In this document: positions 5,967 to 35,279 of the stretch, in pieces
Layout of the letters: each line of letters starts with the position of its first letter
Numbering within the stretch: the first letter of the stretch is position 1
Source of the DNA: a virus
Strand: one strand, 5' to 3'
DNA: 36,783 bases
IMG/VR virus record: IMGVR_UViG_3300032296_002238
Span: 1 to 36,783 of that record
The notes under the pieces: model-generated
What the model was told of the DNA's origin: nothing
The model's input: only the letters and a program-made list of their open reading frames with translations
Database searches by the model: none
Program-made: the position numbers and the translations under genes

Positions 5967-6333
5967 ATTAAACAGAATTTACCCTAATTTAATATCATTG
6001 CTTATGTTGACTGTCTATGAATACACACTTGTTTAGCAGGAGGAGATAGTGAGTGAATTCCTGAGATTATCAGGTTATCACCATCTCCCAAAATACACTC
6101 TTGTTTGAGCTCTCCGGAGAACCGCAGTCAACATATAGGTGCTACGATATGGACTCAACTTTCAAAGGCTATACCCTCCGCCTATTATACACCTCAGTCC
6201 TTAGTGCCGGTGTTGCTTCTTGAATAGGTTCCCACAGTAGAAGCGTACTTTAAATGCGCTGCCGTCACGTACATCTGTACCTCCGAACCACATCTAAAGG
6301 ATGAGAGATTAACTCATCGGTGCAAACTTAATA
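5967..6333. other. Gene-free segment with nested inverted repeats (structured RNA candidate)
   Basis: No open frame is supported. An 11-bp inverted repeat, TATGTTGACTG (6003-6013) and CAGTCAACATA (6125-6135), encloses GGAGAT-A-GTGA (6042-6052) paired with TCAC-C-ATCTCC (6078-6088), which encloses the hairpin CCTGA-GATTA-TCAGG (6060-6074). A direct repeat close to ATACACWCTTGTTT flanks the inner stem (6021-6034, 6093-6106). Further hairpins follow, including GTACA-TC-TGTAC near 6270 and GATGAG/CTCATC near 6300-6319. The layout fits a folded RNA on either strand. No match to a family I know. Confidence 0.55.
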
Positions 6334-6735
6334 TCACGATTCTTCTTTGTCAACTATATAATGTCTTGGAACGCACTTTTTGATGTAGAACTCAATAAAT
6401 TCGGCACCTTTGGTTACCAACAATTTCTCAACAATAAGTCTAAAAACGTATTTATCGTTAAAACCATACTTCTTTTGCAAGATGTCCAGGAATGGTTTTA
6501 CTACGTTATCTACGTCAGATGCCATATTGCTGAGACCCACAATAATGGATAGCTCAATAGGCAACTTGGTTTGACTCATATCTACATAATCCAATTTCTC
6601 CATGACTTCTTTTTCGTAAGCCACATAGTCCTTAGTTTTAAATCTTTTACCCTGCCAGCACTTATTGACTGATAGGGGTTTAATTTCTACTCTGTTTGAT
6701 AAGAGCAGGATATTCTCGTTTGATGATGTCCTCAT
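6334..6735 (-). CDS. rusA: RusA-type Holliday junction resolvase (133 aa)
   Basis: RusA-family enzymes are small dimeric nucleases that cut four-way junctions formed in phage replication and recombination. The protein has the N-terminal PLSVNKCWQGK signature near residue 21, the metal-binding SDVDNVVKPFLDIL core (about 73-86) with the expected Asp residues, and a downstream DKYV region leading into a final beta strand. Length is normal for the family. It overlaps the upstream regulator-like gene by 56 nt and is the last gene of that minus-strand operon. One CTGAGNCCC word lies inside it. Confidence 0.85.
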   Translation of the reverse strand: MRTSSNENILLLSNRVEIKPLSVNKCWQGKRFKTKDYVAYEKEVMEKLDYVDMSQTKLPIELSIIVGLSNMASDVDNVVKPFLDILQKKYGFNDKYVFRLIVEKLLVTKGAEFIEFYIKKCVPRHYIVDKEES

Positions 6736-11070: not shown

Positions 11071-11119
11071 TCCGATTAGATTTTGGGATGAATTAGGTAA
11101 AGAAGTAGAAAAACTATGA
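10922..11119 (+). CDS. Hypothetical protein overlapping the previous gene (65 aa)
   Basis: This +1-frame ORF overlaps the tail of the 130-aa gene by 149 nt and ends in an ATGA overlap with the PP-loop gene at 11116, the same coupling used by most genes here. It encodes a helical, moderately basic protein ending in FWDELGKEVEKL. The clean coupling and normal composition favour a real gene. The alternative is that only the longer frame is used. Confidence 0.5.
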   Translation: MKAQQMYQEIQSLKMNMDPVLVKRIARYSISLVKKELQEVEKAARINLSDPIRFWDELGKEVEKL

Positions 11120-11856
11120 ATGTAATAAACTTTTCGGGCGGAAGAACATCTGCCTATATGGCAAAGCGATTAATAGACGAAGGACTAGAGGACTATATAG
11201 TAACCTTTCAAAACACCGGTAAAGAAATGCCTCAGACCTTAGAATTTGTAAACGAATGCGATAAGAGATGGGGCTTGAATATATTGTGGTTAGAATATCG
11301 CAAACCTGCTTCTTTTGCGGTTGTTGATTATGAAACAGCAAGTCGCAATGGAGAACCATACACACAGTTACTTGAGCAGAGACCGGCTAGTATTCCGAAT
11401 CAGCAATTCAGATTCTGTACTTTGGAATTAAAAATCAATACACTCAAGCGTTATTTGAAGAGCATTGGTATAAAGGATTATACTTCATTTAACGGAATCA
11501 GATACGATGAGCCTAGAAGGTGGAGTAAAGCACAAGAAGATACAGAACTACCACTGGTGAAATGGAAGATAACAAAGCAAGATGTATTGGACTTCTGGAG
11601 TAAACAAGACTTTGATCTGAAAGTAAATGAGCCATATGGTAATTGTGATTGCTGTTTTCTAAAAGGTAAGGGCAAATTAGCTGCCATTGCAAAAGAGAAA
11701 CCGGAGTTATTTGGTTGGTGGATTGATGTAGAGAAACAAAGCGGTCACCAGTGGAAAAAGGAAATCAGTTATCAGCAGCTCAAAGATAAAAGCACAGCAC
11801 AGCTTGGTATATTTGATGGTGATCCATCTTTTGAGTGTTTTTGTAATATTGACTAA
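11116..11856 (+). CDS. PP-loop ATPase, PAPS-reductase/DndC-like family (246 aa)
   Basis: The N-terminal INFSGGRTSAYMA carries the SGGxTS pyrophosphate-binding PP-loop of adenine nucleotide alpha hydrolases. Further family marks are VTFQNTGKE (about 33-41), a Cys in FRFCTLELK (about 99-107), FNGIRYDEPRR (about 127-137), and a C-terminal Cys cluster (NCDCCFLKGK). Such phage proteins are annotated as phosphoadenosine phosphosulfate reductase-like; the real substrate is unknown. Roles in sulfur transfer or nucleic-acid modification are possible. It is the last gene before a new promoter. Confidence 0.82.
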   Translation: MNVINFSGGRTSAYMAKRLIDEGLEDYIVTFQNTGKEMPQTLEFVNECDKRWGLNILWLEYRKPASFAVVDYETASRNGEPYTQLLEQRPASIPNQQFRFCTLELKINTLKRYLKSIGIKDYTSFNGIRYDEPRRWSKAQEDTELPLVKWKITKQDVLDFWSKQDFDLKVNEPYGNCDCCFLKGKGKLAAIAKEKPELFGWWIDVEKQSGHQWKKEISYQQLKDKSTAQLGIFDGDPSFECFCNID

Positions 11857-12241: not shown

Positions 12242-12266
12242 AGCCGGGTAACTCCGGCTTTTTTTT
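12242..12266 (+). terminator. Rho-independent terminator
   Basis: AGCCGG (12242-12247), loop GTAACT, CCGGCT (12254-12259), then a run of eight T. It ends the transcript of the DUF5856-type gene. Confidence 0.92.
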
Positions 12267-12519
12267 ATTGGCTATTTGATTTGTATATCTTGTATCCTGC
12301 CTGATTAACAAAATCATCTTTTACTTCTATCCAGTTAAACTCCATATCGTACTTGTGTTTTGCAGGAGCTCCTTTGCTAATACAATAATAAGTATCATCA
12401 ATAGCATAGACAGGCTGAGTGGTGTGTCCGTAGTGATACCGATAATCTTCTACTTCTGAATAATCTAACATGAGGTGTTGTGCGATTGCTTCTCTTTTGT
12501 TTCTAATTGTTTTGTCCAT
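12265..12519 (-). CDS. Hypothetical protein (84 aa)
   Basis: Not recognised. A small soluble protein rich in Tyr and Asp, with alternating beta-like segments (VEDYRYHYGHTTQPVYAIDDTYYCISKG split at about residues 22-49). It is a lone minus-strand gene facing the terminator of the previous unit. A TATATTTG box (12524-12531, minus strand) ends four bases before its ATG, which supports this start. Confidence 0.72.
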   Translation of the reverse strand: MDKTIRNKREAIAQHLMLDYSEVEDYRYHYGHTTQPVYAIDDTYYCISKGAPAKHKYDMEFNWIEVKDDFVNQAGYKIYKSNSQ

Positions 12520-12523
12520 TCGG

Positions 12524-12531
12524 CAAATATA
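12524..12531 (-). promoter_or_regulatory. -7 box TATATTTG before the 84-aa gene
   Basis: A perfect TAnnTTTG box on the minus strand, four bases before the ATG at 12519. No TTTG is seen at the -33 position. Confidence 0.5.
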
Positions 12532-12543
12532 AGAATTTTAAAG

Positions 12544-12738
12544 AGAAACCTGCTGCTTCTATTCTTTTTATTATCTTATATGTATATAAATATATAAAAA
12601 AAACATATATACATATATCATGCGATATAAGAATACCAATAGTTTATTGCTACTGACATTTAGCCCTCTAGGGGCCACTAGCCGATTTGAACTCTAAGGT
12701 TCCAGCTAGCACGATTCAATATCTCGCAGCAGGTTTCT
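12544..12738. other. Nested inverted-repeat segment (structured RNA or DNA candidate)
   Basis: An outer 13-bp perfect inverted repeat, AGAAACCTGCTGC (12544-12556) and GCAGCAGGTTTCT (12726-12738), encloses TATTCTT (12560-12566)/AAGAATA (12629-12635), which encloses a 12-bp pair TATATGTATATA (12577-12588)/TATATACATATA (12606-12617). The remaining interior holds GCCC-TCTAG-GGGC (12663-12675) and CTAGC...GCTAG (12678-12709) around GAAC-TCTAAG-GTTC (12689-12702). Together these make a multi-arm fold of about 195 nt. No ORF is present. A GTTCAAATC string on the minus strand resembles a tRNA T-loop but lacks a supporting stem. Confidence 0.6.
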
Positions 12739-12780
12739 ATGATACAAAGTAACAGAGATACTGTGCGGTTTTGGTGCATA

Positions 12781-12900
12781 GTTGTCACGTTTTTTCAAAT
12801 ATTTGTGACATATCTTTTTGACGCAGTCATACCTTTTTGTCACAAAAGTGGGGTAAATTTGTGACAGATTTGTAACAGAGTTAGGGATGTCGTATCTTTG
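12781..12900 (+). promoter_or_regulatory. Promoter with clustered TTTGTGACA operator-like boxes
   Basis: A perfect Bacteroides-type promoter, TTTG (12869-12872), 20 nt, TATCTTTG (12893-12900), lies downstream of repeated related boxes: GTTGTCACG (12781), ATTTGTGACA (12801-12810), the palindrome TTTTGT-C-ACAAAA (12835-12847), ATTTGTGACAG (12857-12867) and ATTTGTAACAG (12868-12878). The last two are tandem at 11-bp spacing, and the second covers the -33 element. This looks like a regulated promoter. Confidence 0.75.
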
Positions 12901-14488: not shown

Positions 14489-14627
14489 AATAAATCCCCC
14501 CCCCTATTATACCCGGTAGTACTATACCCGGGGGTAAAATTAGACCCCCCCCTGGTGCATGAATTTTTCCAGATTTTGCAGGCAGGGTAAAAATATGCGG
14601 AAAGTAGTGGAAAGCGATACTTTGTGC

Positions 14628-14691
14628 ATAGAAAAACTTTGTGTGGGGGGTGGGGGTAATAATACGTTACACAAAGTAGACATTTTTCTAT
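14628..14691. repeat. Long interrupted hairpin with G-run loop
   Basis: ATAGAAAAACTTTGTGT (14628-14644) pairs with ACACAAAG (14669-14676) and, after a six-base bulge, with TTTTTCTAT (14683-14691). The loop contains six G, T, five G. Seen directly; function unknown. Confidence 0.75.
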
Positions 14692-14840
14692 AAAATATCC
14701 CCCCCTATGCTTAGCCAAATATCTACAAAACGAATCTACAAAAGCCTGATTACAACCCTTTCGAACTTATTCGATAAAATAAATCGAAAATGAATTTGCA
14801 CCCTTACACGTTCGAACGAATGGACAACATATGCACCCGG

Positions 14841-14962
14841 ACGCACACACGCACACCCACACGCATACAGGCACGCACACCCACACACGGGCACACAAGC
14901 GCACATACGCACACGCATACATACGCATGGGCGCACATACACGCACGCATACGCACGCACGC
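14841..14962. repeat. Alternating CA/CG simple-sequence tract
   Basis: About 120 bp made almost entirely of ACGCAC, CACACG and CATACG units, an alternating purine-pyrimidine stretch able in principle to adopt Z-DNA. Every frame through it is open and gives His/Thr/Arg or Cys/Val/Arg repeats, so the ORFs there are artefacts of the repeat. Confidence 0.85.
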
Positions 14963-22876: not shown

Positions 22877-23548
22877 ATGAAAAAACTTAAAGTATTAGTA
22901 GCTTGCGAAGAAAGCCAGGCGATAACAAAAGAGTTTCGCAAACTCGGACACGAAGCATTCTCATGCGATTTACTTCCTTGCTCAGGTGGACATCCTGAAT
23001 GGCACATACAAGGCGATGTATTTAATATCATTGACCAGGGTTGGGATTTAATGATAGCTCATCCACCCTGCACATATCTTACCGGTAGTGCTGTTCAATG
23101 GTTATCGCATCCGGAAGATAAACATCTTCCCTTTGAGGATCGGAGGCCCAATCCTAAATATCCTAACCGCAGACAAGATATGCTCGACAGCGTTGAATTT
23201 GTCAAAGCATTGTACAACTGCAACATACCCAAGGTTGCTATAGAAAACCCGGTTGGCTTATTGTCCTCACGTTGGAGAAAGCCAGACCAGATTATTCAAC
23301 CCTATCACTTTGGAGATGAGGCAACTAAGACAACCTGCCTATGGTTGAAAGGATTACCACAATTAGAACATACTGATGTTGTAGGCAAGGGAGAGCGAAC
23401 TGTTTTTGGCTCAGGCAAAAGCCATCCCAAATGGTATGCTGATGCTCTAGCACAAGCTAAAACAAAAGCAGAAAGACAAACACTAAGAAGCAAAACCTTT
23501 CCCGGTATGGCTCGTGCTATTGCCGAACAATGGAGTAAAGAAATATGA
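22877..23548 (+). CDS. DNA cytosine methyltransferase-like protein (223 aa)
   Basis: A short Rossmann-fold start (VLVACEESQAITKEFRKLGH, SAM-binding region) and DLMIAHPPCTYLTGSA with the Pro-Cys catalytic motif (about 58-70) point to the C5-cytosine methyltransferase superfamily; AIENPVGLL (about 119-127) matches the ENV-type motif. At 223 aa it lacks a clear target-recognition domain, so specificity or activity cannot be assumed. It is a solitary gene, and no restriction enzyme is adjacent. Protection of phage DNA from host restriction is the usual suggestion. Confidence 0.8.
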   Translation: MKKLKVLVACEESQAITKEFRKLGHEAFSCDLLPCSGGHPEWHIQGDVFNIIDQGWDLMIAHPPCTYLTGSAVQWLSHPEDKHLPFEDRRPNPKYPNRRQDMLDSVEFVKALYNCNIPKVAIENPVGLLSSRWRKPDQIIQPYHFGDEATKTTCLWLKGLPQLEHTDVVGKGERTVFGSGKSHPKWYADALAQAKTKAERQTLRSKTFPGMARAIAEQWSKEI

Positions 23549-23706
23549 CACATCAAGATATATCCGTAAAAGAAATGCTAGACTCGTTTGATGGCAAGAT
23601 AATGCTCGTGCCTCAAGAAATGGAGGTAGTAAGAGAAGCATTGTACCAAATGTACGAGATTGGTTATCAAAAAGCTAAAACAGAAGAAAATGAAACAGAT
23701 AGTTGA
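23545..23706 (+). CDS. Small acidic protein (53 aa)
   Basis: ATGA overlap with the methyltransferase-like gene upstream and 17-nt overlap with the next gene support a real ORF. Helical, acidic, with MEVVREALYQMYEIGYQKAK near residues 26-45. Function unknown. Confidence 0.65.
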   Translation: MTHQDISVKEMLDSFDGKIMLVPQEMEVVREALYQMYEIGYQKAKTEENETDS

Positions 23707-24197: not shown

Positions 24198-24478
24198 AAC
24201 AGATAGATATTGAAATACCAACCAAGCTATACGAAAAGTTCGTTGAGAAGTACGGTGGAGATAAACCGGCAACAGATCTTTTGTCCCTTAAGATTGAGCA
24301 GACAATCAAAATGGAGCGATGGCTAATAAGAAAAAGAAAGCCGGATCTCGAAGATAAGACAGTTGTCAGCGTTCACATCAAGGAATATCTGTTCCCGTAT
24401 CTCAACGAGTATTGTATACATCGCAAAATGTCAAAAAAAGAAATGGTCGCTAAACTAATTAAAAAATTAAGCAAATGA
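24194..24478 (+). CDS. Small basic protein beside the recombinase (94 aa)
   Basis: Not recognised. Helical and basic (MERWLIRKRKPDLEDK, about 43-58; MSKKEMVAKLIKKLSK at the end), with a possible ribbon-helix-helix-like pattern (IDIEIPTKLYEKFVEKYG at the start). It overlaps the recombinase by ATGA and could be its partner or regulator. Start at 24194 is preferred over the longer frame at 24164. Confidence 0.7.
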   Translation: MKQIDIEIPTKLYEKFVEKYGGDKPATDLLSLKIEQTIKMERWLIRKRKPDLEDKTVVSVHIKEYLFPYLNEYCIHRKMSKKEMVAKLIKKLSK

Positions 24479-25161
24479 AAGCAGTAGGCTACATTCGTGT
24501 ATCGACAGATATGCAAGCAGACAAGGGCACATCTTTAGATAACCAGATTGCTCGTATCAAAGAGTACGCCCGGGACAAAGGTTATGAGCTCGAGCACATC
24601 TACGAGGATGCCGGCTATTCAGGTCGCAATACCAAACGACCAGGCTTCCAAAGTATGTTTACCCGGCTGAGGCAGGGTGGCATCAATGCTGTAATCGTAT
24701 GGCACAGCACACGCTTTGCTCGTAACTTGAAGGATAATATAATCCACATGGCTGAGCTTGAGCATCGTAAGATTAAGTTCTATTCCATTGAGGAACCTAT
24801 GTTATCCGGATCATCAGGAAAAGCTATGCGTAATCTTATGGCTGTGTTTGCCGAATATCAATCTGATGTTACCGGTGAGCATACCCGGAGCGTAAAAGCT
24901 AATCTCAAAAAGAATTATAAAGTCTATTGTCCTTATCCCCCTATTGGATATAAGAATCAAGATGGTGTTCTGAGCCCCGACCCGGAGGGTATGGCTGTGG
25001 TAGATAATGTGCTACAGATGCATCGCCAGGGCGTACCGCTGTATCGCATTGCCAAAACACTGAACGATAAGGGAATCAAAGGAAGTAAGGGGGGTGTGTT
25101 CTATGCCTCTACAGTTAAAAAAATAATCAACAACAAAATTTATGCTACAGATAGAAACTAA
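24475..25161 (+). CDS. Serine recombinase (resolvase/integrase family, 228 aa)
   Basis: Residues 1-140 are the resolvase catalytic domain: YIRVST with nucleophile Ser10, the Arg in VWHSTRFARN (about 76-85), and the dimer helix near SSGKAMRNLMAVFAEYQSD. A 'recombinase' domain follows (PPIGYKNQDG..., about 155-220). It lacks the zinc ribbon and coiled coil of full-length large serine integrases, so it may be a short resolvase/invertase or need a partner. If it integrates the genome, this phage is temperate; no attachment site was found here. Confidence 0.85.
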   Translation: MKAVGYIRVSTDMQADKGTSLDNQIARIKEYARDKGYELEHIYEDAGYSGRNTKRPGFQSMFTRLRQGGINAVIVWHSTRFARNLKDNIIHMAELEHRKIKFYSIEEPMLSGSSGKAMRNLMAVFAEYQSDVTGEHTRSVKANLKKNYKVYCPYPPIGYKNQDGVLSPDPEGMAVVDNVLQMHRQGVPLYRIAKTLNDKGIKGSKGGVFYASTVKKIINNKIYATDRN

Positions 25162-31533: not shown

Positions 31534-33348
31534 TTTTTCTATACGTACTTTTTTCCAAACTCGTACGTACCGACCACCTTGAAATTCGAGAACAGGAATC
31601 TCCTTAGATTCCTGAACTTGAGGTGCTTTCTTTTGGAACTTCTTTACAATATTCTTGTGCATAATCTCACAAGCTACCATAGCATCAGCAATATCCGTAT
31701 TATCTACGAGGTAATTTTTTAAATCTAAAACCATCTCCAAAAACCATATATCTTCGGTATATACTTTTAGGTAATCTATCAGATAAGAATTACCTCTCTC
31801 AGCCGTAATATCGTTTTTATAATAGCCAACAGAATCATCGTCCTTCCAGAATCCTTTGCCCAGGAAGATAGGTTTCTTTGCCAACAAATGTATCTTACCG
31901 GCATCCTTGTATTTCTGTTTAACTACACCACCCCGGTTAATTTCTATCATGGCTACTGCGTTATTGTAGTACTCCTGCATGAGAATCATATTGTTGACAA
32001 TCTGATCCGGATCTGAGTCCCTTTCGGTATAGTATGCCACATACCTATTGGTATCAATATCTTTAATTACTATACATTGTTTAGAACCATCTCCCATATT
32101 TTTTGAGTTAAACGGAATAGGGTCAATCCCTGCAATGTAGGTGTGGTCCGGATGAGGATTTTCTAAAAAATGCATTGCACTAGATGCGTCAGCCTTTTTA
32201 ATTATCTCCCCGGAGTAATCTCTCAGCAGATAGGATCTATCGATCGGAGGCCGGGATGATAAAATAATTCTCTCCTGAGTGTCCAATTTATCCATGATAA
32301 CCTTAGGGAAAGCACCATGCCCACTAACCGAGAAAACTTCTTGAATCTCGAGGGGGTACTGTTTGATAAATGAGTTCAGATAACTTTTATCCTCTAATTT
32401 ATCTAGCGTGTCCCGGGTCTTCAATATCCATTCGGTTGCAGCTTTCTCATCGCTATACCCATTGGGACAGAAGTTTAGAATGCGCCCTGTCTCCTTGCCA
32501 TTCGCATCGAGCTCCGGGGCTTCCATGATTCCTTGGTTACCAGGAAGAAAGATAGTAAGAATCTTTAGAGCATCAGCATTATCCCACAACGTCTTAGCTA
32601 ACTTCTGTCCGATAGATGTAGCTTCACCGGCACTACCACCGATTACAATCGGGGCTACCTTGATAAAGCCAGATTTCGTACTAGCTTGAGCTGATTTGTA
32701 AACCTGGTCAGCCTTAGGATGCAGCATACACTCGTCAATGAAAATGTGCATGGCACGATATGCCTCAAACGCTGTAGGAGTATCGACAGTTTCTTTTGTA
32801 ATAATCTGGGAGTCCAAGCCGGTAACAGAACCTGTCTTAGTATCTCTTCTGCCGAGGTGCAGATAACCTTCCTGTCGAGTCGATACGATACCGGGCTTGG
32901 CATACTCATCGAACTCGTCATATACTACACGAGTCTTATCTTTAAATAAAGCTGTCAGACGCTGTTTATCGGCAGAAGTAATTAGAGATGTTGAACCCGG
33001 ATTGGTCATTGCAATCCATAGTGGTATAATGCCACCAAACACAAACGAGAGACCAACTTCTCGCCTTTTAGTTACAAACAAATCATGGTTGGTTCTACGG
33101 GCTTCCATATAACCCTCGTAGATCAGCTCATCTATATCTCGCCAGACCGGTCTCTTTTTGAAACCCCTGGCATCTTTTACAAAGCCTTGAGTCAGAGCAA
33201 AGTAATGAGGTCCGGTTAGCCCGAAGCGACCATTGATCCAATACTCACGTTCTTGTGCCCACCATTTATCCTTCTCAGATTTGGTTGCGTTGGGGCTCAG
33301 ACCATACTTGGCAAACCATTCATCATATACAAATTTACTCTTCTTCAT
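31528..33348 (-). CDS. terL: Terminase large subunit (606 aa)
   Basis: The packaging motor that translocates DNA into the head and cuts concatemers. The ATPase part has a Walker A-like TKRREVGLS (about 91-99), and Walker B MHIFIDE (about 208-214). The nuclease part begins at AGIDPIPF (about 391-398, first catalytic Asp), then AMIEINRGG (second acidic), and ends with DNTDIADAMVAC carrying the final Asp. Size and order fit. The start overlaps the upstream gene by four bases. It contains CTGAGNCCC copies 32013 and 33292. Confidence 0.92.
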   Translation of the reverse strand: MKKSKFVYDEWFAKYGLSPNATKSEKDKWWAQEREYWINGRFGLTGPHYFALTQGFVKDARGFKKRPVWRDIDELIYEGYMEARRTNHDLFVTKRREVGLSFVFGGIIPLWIAMTNPGSTSLITSADKQRLTALFKDKTRVVYDEFDEYAKPGIVSTRQEGYLHLGRRDTKTGSVTGLDSQIITKETVDTPTAFEAYRAMHIFIDECMLHPKADQVYKSAQASTKSGFIKVAPIVIGGSAGEATSIGQKLAKTLWDNADALKILTIFLPGNQGIMEAPELDANGKETGRILNFCPNGYSDEKAATEWILKTRDTLDKLEDKSYLNSFIKQYPLEIQEVFSVSGHGAFPKVIMDKLDTQERIILSSRPPIDRSYLLRDYSGEIIKKADASSAMHFLENPHPDHTYIAGIDPIPFNSKNMGDGSKQCIVIKDIDTNRYVAYYTERDSDPDQIVNNMILMQEYYNNAVAMIEINRGGVVKQKYKDAGKIHLLAKKPIFLGKGFWKDDDSVGYYKNDITAERGNSYLIDYLKVYTEDIWFLEMVLDLKNYLVDNTDIADAMVACEIMHKNIVKKFQKKAPQVQESKEIPVLEFQGGRYVRVWKKVRIEKS

Positions 33349-33668
33349 TTGCGGCTTTTAACCCTGTCCAGGAATGAAGCATCATCATCTTCTTTCTGTT
33401 CCTCAGGGTATGCTTCTAGCTTTGCAAGTTTTAAACTTTTATTAATTTTATCTCCTGCCTGGAGCAGTTGAAACAGACCTTTCTGATAAGCATCATCTAG
33501 ATCCAAACTCTTATCCTTAACGGAGTCCATTAATTGTTTCGAGGCCGACACAAGAGTCGCATAGAAATCCTTAGCAGGATCAAAATCTTGCAGTTTAAGT
33601 CTTTCAATCGCATCGTCTTCACTCAGCTTATTTACTCTTAGGAACTCCGAGAGTTTTTCTAAGTTCAC
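33345..33668 (-). CDS. Probable terminase small subunit-like protein (107 aa)
   Basis: Directly upstream of the large terminase with ATGA overlap, the usual place for TerS. It is helical and charged (LSEDDAIERLKLQDFDPAKDFYA; then YQKGLFQLLQAGDKINK) with no clear HTH. The frame opens to a TTG at 33731, which would give over 100 nt of overlap with the next gene; GTG 33668, preceded by AAGAAG, is more likely. Call by position only. Confidence 0.6.
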   Translation of the reverse strand: MNLEKLSEFLRVNKLSEDDAIERLKLQDFDPAKDFYATLVSASKQLMDSVKDKSLDLDDAYQKGLFQLLQAGDKINKSLKLAKLEAYPEEQKEDDDASFLDRVKSRK

Positions 33669-33816
33669 TGATTCTTCTTTTTTGTTCTTCAATTTCTTTC
33701 TGAGCTTTGTTTGCCTCGATAGGATTATCAATGGCGGTGTAATACTCCCACCATGACATTAACTTCTGAAGTTTGATAACTTCTTCTTCGATTACTTGTT
33801 TATTGCTTTTAGCCAT
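33628..33816 (-). CDS. Small coiled-coil protein (62 aa)
   Basis: Helical throughout with Lys/Glu heptads (EVIKLQKLMSWWEYY; KAQKEIEEQKRRISELRK). Overlaps the TerS-like gene and, by 25 nt, the upstream gene. Could be a packaging accessory. Confidence 0.65.
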   Translation of the reverse strand: MAKSNKQVIEEEVIKLQKLMSWWEYYTAIDNPIEANKAQKEIEEQKRRISELRKTLGVPKSK

Positions 33817-34160
33817 TGTTGTAAGTCAAAATTAATTAAGTCTCCTTCTTCTACATTATATCCAAGGGACTGATAAAATCGTACCAAATTTGATAATGTC
33901 AGCAGCTGATCTACTGTTGCTGTATTGCATATCCGGTATTCCTCGTCCACACCACCAATCAAGGCGATGTGTATATCTGAGGCCGAAGGAATAAGAACGT
34001 GCATATAGCCTTGTTCAGTAATACAATGCGTAAAGAAGGGTGTTCTTCCCAGACCTCCGATATGGAATGTCTCAGTAGATAACCTTGTTCTTGCCTTTTC
34101 ATGGGCATGGACCTCGCTGGGTCTCAGTGTAGGTTTTGAATATGTCCAATAGATTTTCAC
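33792..34160 (-). CDS. Hypothetical protein (122 aa)
   Basis: Not recognised. Mixed alpha/beta: KIYWTYSKPTLRP at the start, YMHVLIPSASDIHIALIGGV in the middle, LSNLVRFYQSLGYNVEEGDL near the end. No signal peptide. It overlaps its neighbours by four and 25 nt. CTGAGNCCC copy 34119-34127. Confidence 0.68.
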   Translation of the reverse strand: MKIYWTYSKPTLRPSEVHAHEKARTRLSTETFHIGGLGRTPFFTHCITEQGYMHVLIPSASDIHIALIGGVDEEYRICNTATVDQLLTLSNLVRFYQSLGYNVEEGDLINFDLQQWLKAINK

Positions 34161-34411
34161 CTTTTATATTTAATTTTCAGTAGTATCAGATAACCGATTA
34201 AATCGGTAATTGTATCTTCTGTTTCATCTTCCTGTAGGTTTTTTAATCTATTCAGTTTATCATCTATTCTTACTTTCAATTGTTCTGTGGCATCGCTCTT
34301 AGCAAAAATACGCACAGGATTCAATGCTGAATCTCCATACTTACGGTTCTTCTCTAGCAGCAACTGCTTAATTTCATTACAAGTGTTTTCGATTTCTATT
34401 TGAGTATTCAT
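34157..34411 (-). CDS. DUF1599/nucleotide-modification-type small protein (84 aa)
   Basis: LLLEKNRKYGDSALNPVRIF (about 18-37) and EDTITDLIGYLILLK (about 65-79) match the all-alpha MazG/DUF1599-like type, known in phages next to nucleotide-metabolism or base-modification genes. A second reading as a plain hypothetical helical protein is possible. ATG 34411 is chosen because it overlaps the upstream stop as ATGA; the frame stays open to 34438. Confidence 0.7.
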   Translation of the reverse strand: MNTQIEIENTCNEIKQLLLEKNRKYGDSALNPVRIFAKSDATEQLKVRIDDKLNRLKNLQEDETEDTITDLIGYLILLKIKYKR

Positions 34412-34845
34412 AATTCTTCTGGTGGCACAAATATACATAATTCTTTTGGAACACGATAAAAAACATCTGTACGTTTTCTGTATTGTGTATTTATCCTTAG
34501 AATTTGTTTATACTTTTCTTGAAATATAATATTGCTATCGCACATTAGTATAGCTTTGGTCTCAGTACATATAATTACATACCAGAACTGCTCATCTTTC
34601 CATTTCTCTTTTCGCTGCAAAAAGGAAACAGTATCAAAGTTGAAGTCTTCCATATTGGTCCACGGTCTGAGAGATTTCATCTCCACTTCCCACCGGTACA
34701 CTTTGCCGTCTTTCTCAGAGAATAGATCAATACCATACTTATCCTCATTCTCTTGAATGTGATGGCCTTTTTTGACTAGGAATGCTTTTAATAATTCCTT
34801 GCCTTGGTTGTCGCTTTTATCGAAAAGCGTTTGAACAAAATTCAT
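34408..34845 (-). CDS. PD-(D/E)XK-like protein, putative nuclease (145 aa)
   Basis: GIDLFSEKDGKVYRWEVEMKS (Asp near 40, Glu-x-Glu-Met-Lys near 54-58) matches the D...(E)xK core of restriction-endonuclease-like folds. The rest has strands and Trp/Lys-rich helices. Only the core pattern is visible, so activity is uncertain. Roles in recombination, packaging or anti-defence are possible. Confidence 0.65.
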   Translation of the reverse strand: MNFVQTLFDKSDNQGKELLKAFLVKKGHHIQENEDKYGIDLFSEKDGKVYRWEVEMKSLRPWTNMEDFNFDTVSFLQRKEKWKDEQFWYVIICTETKAILMCDSNIIFQEKYKQILRINTQYRKRTDVFYRVPKELCIFVPPEEL

Positions 34846-35279
34846 CTACGAGATATAAATACGGTTGTAATTACGCCTGTAGTAAAGGCGATTAATATGA
34901 CAATCCAATTCCACTTCTTTGTCTCTACCACACGCCCGGCAGTTTTAACTTCTATCCGGGTTGTATCACGATAGATAAAGGTGTCAGGTTTGATTCTTAC
35001 TGTGAACTTATCTTTGAACTTTACGATTACAATCTTTTTGGTCTCAATCATTGTATCGTTCTTGATTATAAATGAGTCCCTATACTCAGGCACAGGGATT
35101 CTCAATTCCTTGACGAATGTATCACGATATACAATGGTATCTAAGGTAACACACTTAGGGTGATTTCTTAAAAAACGATTACATCTTTTCTGCGAGTCAC
35201 AGGACGAGATTGCCAGGGCTATCAGAATACCAATTCCGATGAGGATAATTCTGGCTAGCTTCACGCTTATCTTTTTCAT
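34842..35279 (-). CDS. Probable unimolecular spanin (145 aa)
   Basis: The N-terminus is a lipoprotein signal (basic MKKISVKLAR, hydrophobic run, lipobox AISSC, Cys about 27). The centre is beta-rich with repeated YRDTFxxE/YRDSFxx/YRDTTRxE elements (from about 50). The C-terminus has one membrane span (WIVILIAFTTGVITTVFI, about 124-141) and SRR. Lipoprotein at one end and transmembrane helix at the other is the hallmark of u-spanins, which fuse inner and outer membranes at lysis. A TATATTTG box ends five bases before the ATG. Confidence 0.72.
   Translation of the reverse strand: MKKISVKLARIILIGIGILIALAISSCDSQKRCNRFLRNHPKCVTLDTIVYRDTFVKELRIPVPEYRDSFIIKNDTMIETKKIVIVKFKDKFTVRIKPDTFIYRDTTRIEVKTAGRVVETKKWNWIVILIAFTTGVITTVFISRR

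Follow-up and report, generated by a model that had tools for sequence, protein, structure and literature searches.

The mRNAs of type I toxins of the hok kind have paired ends and are subject to fold-back inhibition. To our knowledge, few structured RNAs have been catalogued for the phages of Bacteroidota. The non-coding RNA of a retron has the layout a1-msr-msd-a2, with a conserved guanosine by the a1/a2 repeats for 2'-5' priming, as described in the accessible sections of PMC8989520.

Here we describe a 195-nt segment at positions 12544-12738 of a 36,783-base IMG/VR virus record, the whole of which we refer to as the window. As judged from sequence comparison, this segment is a conserved structured RNA gene and not a chance repeat. 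The record carries genes for a portal protein, a primase-helicase, a DNA polymerase, a terminase and a capsid protein, the last of which has SU10/crAss-like matches below the cut-off. The window contains 69 TAnnTTTG boxes against 38 expected; TAnnTTTG is the consensus of the Bacteroidota promoter box in the accessible parts of PMC7366714 and PMC8748976, and the promoter-like boxes of the window are of this Bacteroidota type. The named phages nearest by protein are distant and the DNA is present in none of them, nor was it found in plasmids.

Two other features of the record may be mentioned. A PAPS-reductase family protein encoded at 11116-11856 (PADLOC SspD match, 1.5e-19; also phrog_424) points to possible DNA-sulfur chemistry in the phage, and positions 14490-14960 contain C-runs together with a long alternating CACACGCACAC-type stretch.

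Closing repeat and fold of the segment

A first-pass annotation of the DNA had described a 13-bp closing repeat, and the arms at 12544-12556 and 12726-12738 are indeed complementary at 13 of 13 positions, forming a perfect inverted repeat with a spacer of 169 nt. However, of 200 dinucleotide shuffles made from the whole stretch, 37 held a perfect inverted repeat of at least 13 bp with a spacer of 60-300 nt (mean 0.21). Because shuffled sequences so often hold such a repeat, the closing repeat taken alone is weak evidence and is not significant. Inverted repeats of at least 12 bp were also inspected at ten places in other loci and were all taken as chance: eight sit entirely, or very nearly so, inside a frame free of stops, and the two in L075 and L068 are unlike the element.

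The segment 12544-12738 folds with a z-score of -5.43 when read on the minus strand and of -6.26 when read on the plus strand, and none of 200 shuffles folded as well on either. The two strands of the segment rank first and second among 370 segment-strands by MFE minus the shuffle mean, in a comparison that covered a 200-nt grid plus two chosen starts (the element and 6001) with 12 shuffles each. A close copy of the element on another contig, L025, folds with z-scores of -6.69 and -6.96 on its two strands.

Read on the minus strand, with its 5' end at 12738, the predicted 195-nt RNA is closed by a helix, P1, whose 5' strand is 12726-12738 and whose 3' strand is 12544-12556. Within P1 the folds place four further helices. 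P2 (12677-12710) is a hairpin of 8 bp and 5 bp with a 4-nt bulge, AAAU (AGAU in L173). P3 (12662-12676), directly beside P2, is a 5-bp hairpin with AGAGGG in its loop and 3' strand. P4 (12636-12656) is a 7-bp hairpin in which one C-G/U-A exchange is seen among the close copies, and P5 (12560-12635), delineated by the fold and by comparison with a divergent copy, is a 7-bp stem bearing a 12-bp AU hairpin of variable length. The inner helices of what had been described as three nested inverted repeats plus a compound hairpin are therefore present, but they are not nested, forming instead a multibranched fold within one closing stem. The first-pass annotation saw no ORF in the 195 nt; the segment contains none of at least 50 aa, although shorter frames do exist.

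The first-pass annotation placed the segment between two transcription units, which agrees with the signals on its two sides. To the left is the intrinsic terminator of the left-hand gene (12242-12259, plus strand), at which plus-strand transcription is predicted to stop before the RNA, and to the right is a plus-strand promoter-like box, TATCTTTG, at 12893-12900, preceded by TTTGTGACA repeats (12802-12866). In the region 12782-12890, ahead of the next gene's promoter, TTTGTGACA-type sites recur, three of them exact and within a span of 65 bp; they look like operators and are partly missing from L024 and L025.

Another non-coding stretch in the window, 5967-6345, is possibly what the earlier description counted as its first folded segment. 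It has an 11-bp closing repeat (6003-6013/6125-6135), is 87-90% identical in L114, L127 and L131, and folds with z-scores of -1.3 and -1.8.

Copies in related records and covariation

Close copies were identified on two further contigs, L002/L024 (88% identical) and L025/L031/L034/L149 (94% identical), by scanning for the element itself and for the proteins encoded beside it. An IR-spacer pattern scan returned only the two contigs already known in viral_contigs and none in genome_contigs, and a core-pattern scan of viral_contigs and genome_contigs had the same outcome. Three genes compared around the element are 71-87% identical between the close-copy contigs and the window, with 97% identity for the 84-aa ORF of L024. 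Set against these genes, the sequence conservation of the element is not unusual between L024 and the window and is higher than that of the genes between L025 and the window.

The window and L025 differ in the element by ten substitutions, which break no pair of the minus-strand fold derived from the window only (null mean 4.3, P = 0.0008) and one pair of the plus-strand fold (P = 0.03). Comparison of L024 with the window on the minus-strand fold gave the same picture (P = 0.001), most of the changes being shared with L025, and L024 and L025 are to be read as non-independent sequences.

The first-pass annotation had suggested a covariance search, which brought to light a fourth copy that is divergent. 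Built from the three close copies, a first model (R1) gave nothing further over 161 sources, the weak matches at E values of 0.005-2 being overlapping palindromic places or chance. Over 41 whole records (L164-L168 and L171 were covered as loci only) R1 matched four, one of which, G005, was new. The G005 copy lies at 23507-23695 on the minus strand and is full length, scoring 59.7 bits with an E value of 1e-14. A second model (R2), applied to 150 records that left out G000-G002, whose copies are part of the model, found only G005 convincing, with two others at E values of 0.74 and 0.93. The element is thus carried by 4 of 153 records.

The closing stem of the G005 copy consists of very different letters and still pairs, over a greater length of 16 pairs interrupted by a bulge. 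The single-sequence fold of this copy has the same layout (z -6.2). In a model-fitted alignment (A9) of the four copies, three of which are alike such that the covariation rests mostly on the one divergent sequence, 14 of 62 pairs are changed on both sides: 5 of the 13 in P1, 4 in P2, 1 in P4 and 4 in P5. Of 233 cells in A9, 99.1% pair; sliding one strand by 1-3 columns leaves 0-1 double changes, and none of 500 shuffles reached as high a count. A9 is fitted to the structure, and the higher count is the one that it gives; the count was repeated on a sequence-only alignment (A10), in which 7 of 62 pairs are double-changed, three of them in P2, and 90.0% of cells pair. Slid versions of A10 show 1-4 double changes and one of 500 shuffles was as high. 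The P1 count in A10 is poor because P1 of L173 is displaced by one base in this alignment.

Comparison of the copies shows that the predicted structure persists although its letters differ. Rapid sequence divergence had been put forward as a finding that would speak against an RNA here; the sequence does diverge, yet the pairs are kept, and divergence is therefore not the right test. The proposal that a non-coding RNA with complementary ends lies here gains support from the covariation in the divergent relative, as a prediction that leaves room for a short translated frame. The most constant letters in the four copies are CUGC, AAGAUAUUGA (in which the window has G instead of the first A), the P2 bulge region and AAUGUCA.

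Strand and coding capacity

Sequence comparison favours a minus-strand location for the RNA gene. Three G-U pairs that are identical in all four sequences would become A-C if the RNA were read from the plus strand, as would 19 G-U cells in A9 by our own count. The L173 copy folds to -61.3 on the minus strand versus -51.2 on the plus strand, and the substitutions in L024 and L025 keep the minus-strand pairs. The z-scores for the window and L025 are, by contrast, slightly better for the plus strand, because shuffles of the plus strand give poorer folds. Plus-strand transcription arriving from the left in the window is predicted to meet the terminator at 12242-12259. A terminator-like hairpin and T run recognized by eye on the plus strand of L025 end about 3 nt from the left end of the RNA, so there is no room at that position for a plus-strand promoter.

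Upstream of the minus-strand RNA, a region of 43 nt (12739-12781) co-occurs with it, being conserved in L024 and L025 and absent from the relatives without the RNA (L007/L008/L023), which lose 12270-12781. This region contains a -7-like box, TTACTTTG (12745-12752), one base off TAnnTTTG and 6 nt before the RNA's first base; as a putative promoter it would start the RNA at about 12738. No -33 box was seen upstream of the RNA, and there is no clear terminator after P1 in the window or L025.

The strongest rival explanation is translation: the RNA would be a folded message for a tiny hydrophobic peptide, with its ends paired and a Shine-Dalgarno-like AGAGGG hidden in P3. In all four copies AGAGGG is followed by ATG-TCA, and the frame specifies peptides rich in I, F and Y of 31 aa in L024, 75 aa in L025 and 28 aa in L173; the proportions of shuffles with a frame open as long are 3.5%, 1.2% and 7.6%, respectively. 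However, the frames of L024 and L025 are not independent, and that of the window stops after 13 aa, a length that 22.7% of shuffles also reach. The early stop results from the loss of 2 nt from the loop of P4, whose pairs are kept. Neither the C-terminal part of the frame nor its stop is conserved, the I/F/Y content is explained by the AU-rich P5, and no convincing family match was found for the peptide. We regard a peptide product as unlikely overall; for the window copy the RNA reading is better than the peptide reading, whereas the other three copies may encode a peptide. A 36-codon GTG frame that crosses the 5' end of the RNA and is intact in three copies was set aside, as it lies in a stretch without indels in any frame and no codon pattern was seen.

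Genomic placement and comparison with known systems

Comparison of the records shows the predicted RNA to be an accessory unit that occurs sporadically and at two genomic places with different neighbour genes. L024 and L025 are collinear at 94% up to L024 position 4159, and collinearity resumes at the element's first base. What lies in between differs: an 84-aa ORF in L024, and another gene plus tRNA-like RNAs in L025. These inserts end exactly at the base matching 12544. In G005, whose contig ends 3 bases past the 5' end of the RNA, the neighbour genes match window positions 32366-35153 and not the 12.5-kb slot. The RNA there lies upstream of a homologue of the protein encoded at 34842-35279 of the window, which we label as membrane-anchored and spanin-like without a database match. 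At both genomic places, what comes after the RNA on its own strand is a TATATTTG box together with a minus-strand gene.

The slot occupied by the RNA in the window holds tRNA-like genes in relatives. L027 4249-4349 matches RF00005 at 33.5 bits, and L025 4165-4549 shows by eye GUCAGG...CCUGAC acceptor-like ends and T-arms, these RNAs being unusually long and giving no tool hit. For the element itself, identity as a tRNA or tmRNA was rejected (ARAGORN found 0 genes in the window, and RF00005 gave no match in G000). A tRNA origin was likewise rejected; the minus-strand GUUCAAAUC is T-loop-like, but its stem lacks T-arm pairing and the motif is not kept in L173.

The exchange of neighbours bears on whether the RNA could be a cis-acting leader, a riboswitch or attenuator, of the gene downstream. 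In the window and L024, and only there, the RNA is followed on the same strand by the 84-aa ORF (12265-12519, minus strand), which is of unknown family. This gene is absent beside the RNA in L025 and an unrelated gene follows in G005, which argues that the RNA is not its leader; the gene also has its own TATATTTG box (12524-12531) between the RNA and the ATG. We consider a leader function unlikely. The 84-aa protein itself recurs with 75-76% identity in four loci of other surroundings, its middle part being strongly conserved.

It is very improbable that the segment acts as a DNA-level element, whether one that inverts or a small one bounded by terminal inverted repeats. Such an element would fit the 13-bp inverted repeat at 169 nt, the junction between L024 and L025 exactly at the base matching 12544, and the presence in the record of a serine recombinase gene (24475-25161), which encodes a resolvase domain and about half of a Recombinase domain (54 of 102 positions). 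Nevertheless, the arms in G005 have changed with compensation, unlike a recombinase recognition site, and the substitutions respect the pairs of one strand better than those of the other. The three close copies have the same orientation relative to the conserved right flank, no invertase was found adjoining the element, and there is no exact TAnnTTTG between 12531 and 12854, so no promoter box lies inside the repeats. An invertible promoter was rejected on these last three observations.

The best explanation overall, and one that we consider reasonably probable, is a compact structured accessory RNA of about 195 nt, encoded on the minus strand and binding a partner in trans. P1 would pair both ends, over 13 bp in the window and over a bulged 16 bp in the divergent relative, and may protect them. 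It would close a multibranched core made up of the bulged P2, P3 stacked beside P2, P4 and the AU-rich P5. Paired ends, together with a core that is small and conserved and an AU hairpin that varies, suggest a stable RNA that binds something via its core, for which CUGC, AAGAUAUUGA, P2 with its bulge, P3 and AAUGUCA are the candidate determinants. Its sporadic, accessory presence argues against a core phage function, and we would favour a role in interaction with the host or rival elements rather than in phage assembly or replication. A more specific possibility, which we advance tentatively, is that promoter and RNA form a self-contained unit, travelling from one intergenic slot to another among related Bacteroidota-type phages. 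It would be an RNA-only accessory gene that has no protein partner of its own and whose RNA is directed, as an effector or as a decoy, at the host or at rival elements. The RNA appears to behave like an accessory 'moron' gene with an RNA product, one that is supported by covariation and absent from Rfam 15. As a sporadic, relocating gene, it would allow phages with and without the unit to be compared on the same host, with or without defence systems.

The element resembles a retron msr-msd in being a folded RNA closed by inverted repeats, with short hairpins followed by a long one. Its minus-strand layout is similar to the a1-msr-msd-a2 order given in the accessible sections of PMC8989520, with a1/a2-like ends, short msr-like hairpins and a long msd-like hairpin. 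It differs in lacking a reverse transcriptase, PF00078 being found in 0 of 25 records (incomplete records that may be fragments) with positive controls, and in having no partner gene common to the copies. A retron that carries its own enzyme is rejected on these 25 records, and the first-pass annotation had likewise held a retron to be unsupported. That the element is a retron-like template RNA for a reverse transcriptase provided in trans is extremely unlikely. By eye there was no clear candidate for the guanosine expected beside the repeats.

With the mRNAs of type I toxins the element shares paired ends, a hidden AGAGGG and, in three of the four copies, a small hydrophobic frame; it differs in that the frame is broken in the window and has no family match here. 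Bacterial Y RNA (YrlA) similarly has its ends paired in a stem, and the GUUCAAAUC letters of the element resemble a tRNA T-loop. A Y RNA with its partner was, however, rejected, as the TROVE gene (Ro60/Rsr) was found in 0 of 5 records, and the T-loop-like letters are lost in L173 and form part of P2.

A literature search restricted to open-access papers found no published description of this RNA, and Rfam 15 gave 0 matches at the gathering score, with sub-threshold matches at chance level. Candidate structured ncRNA motifs from comparative genomics, such as skipping-rope RNA (RF02924), are, like the element, stand-alone, intergenic and recognized by covariation, and the element may resemble RF02924 in shape. 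The element differs from these motifs in matching no Rfam 15 family. Compared with known motifs through Rfam 15, it forms a new family within a kind already known, that of structured phage RNAs.
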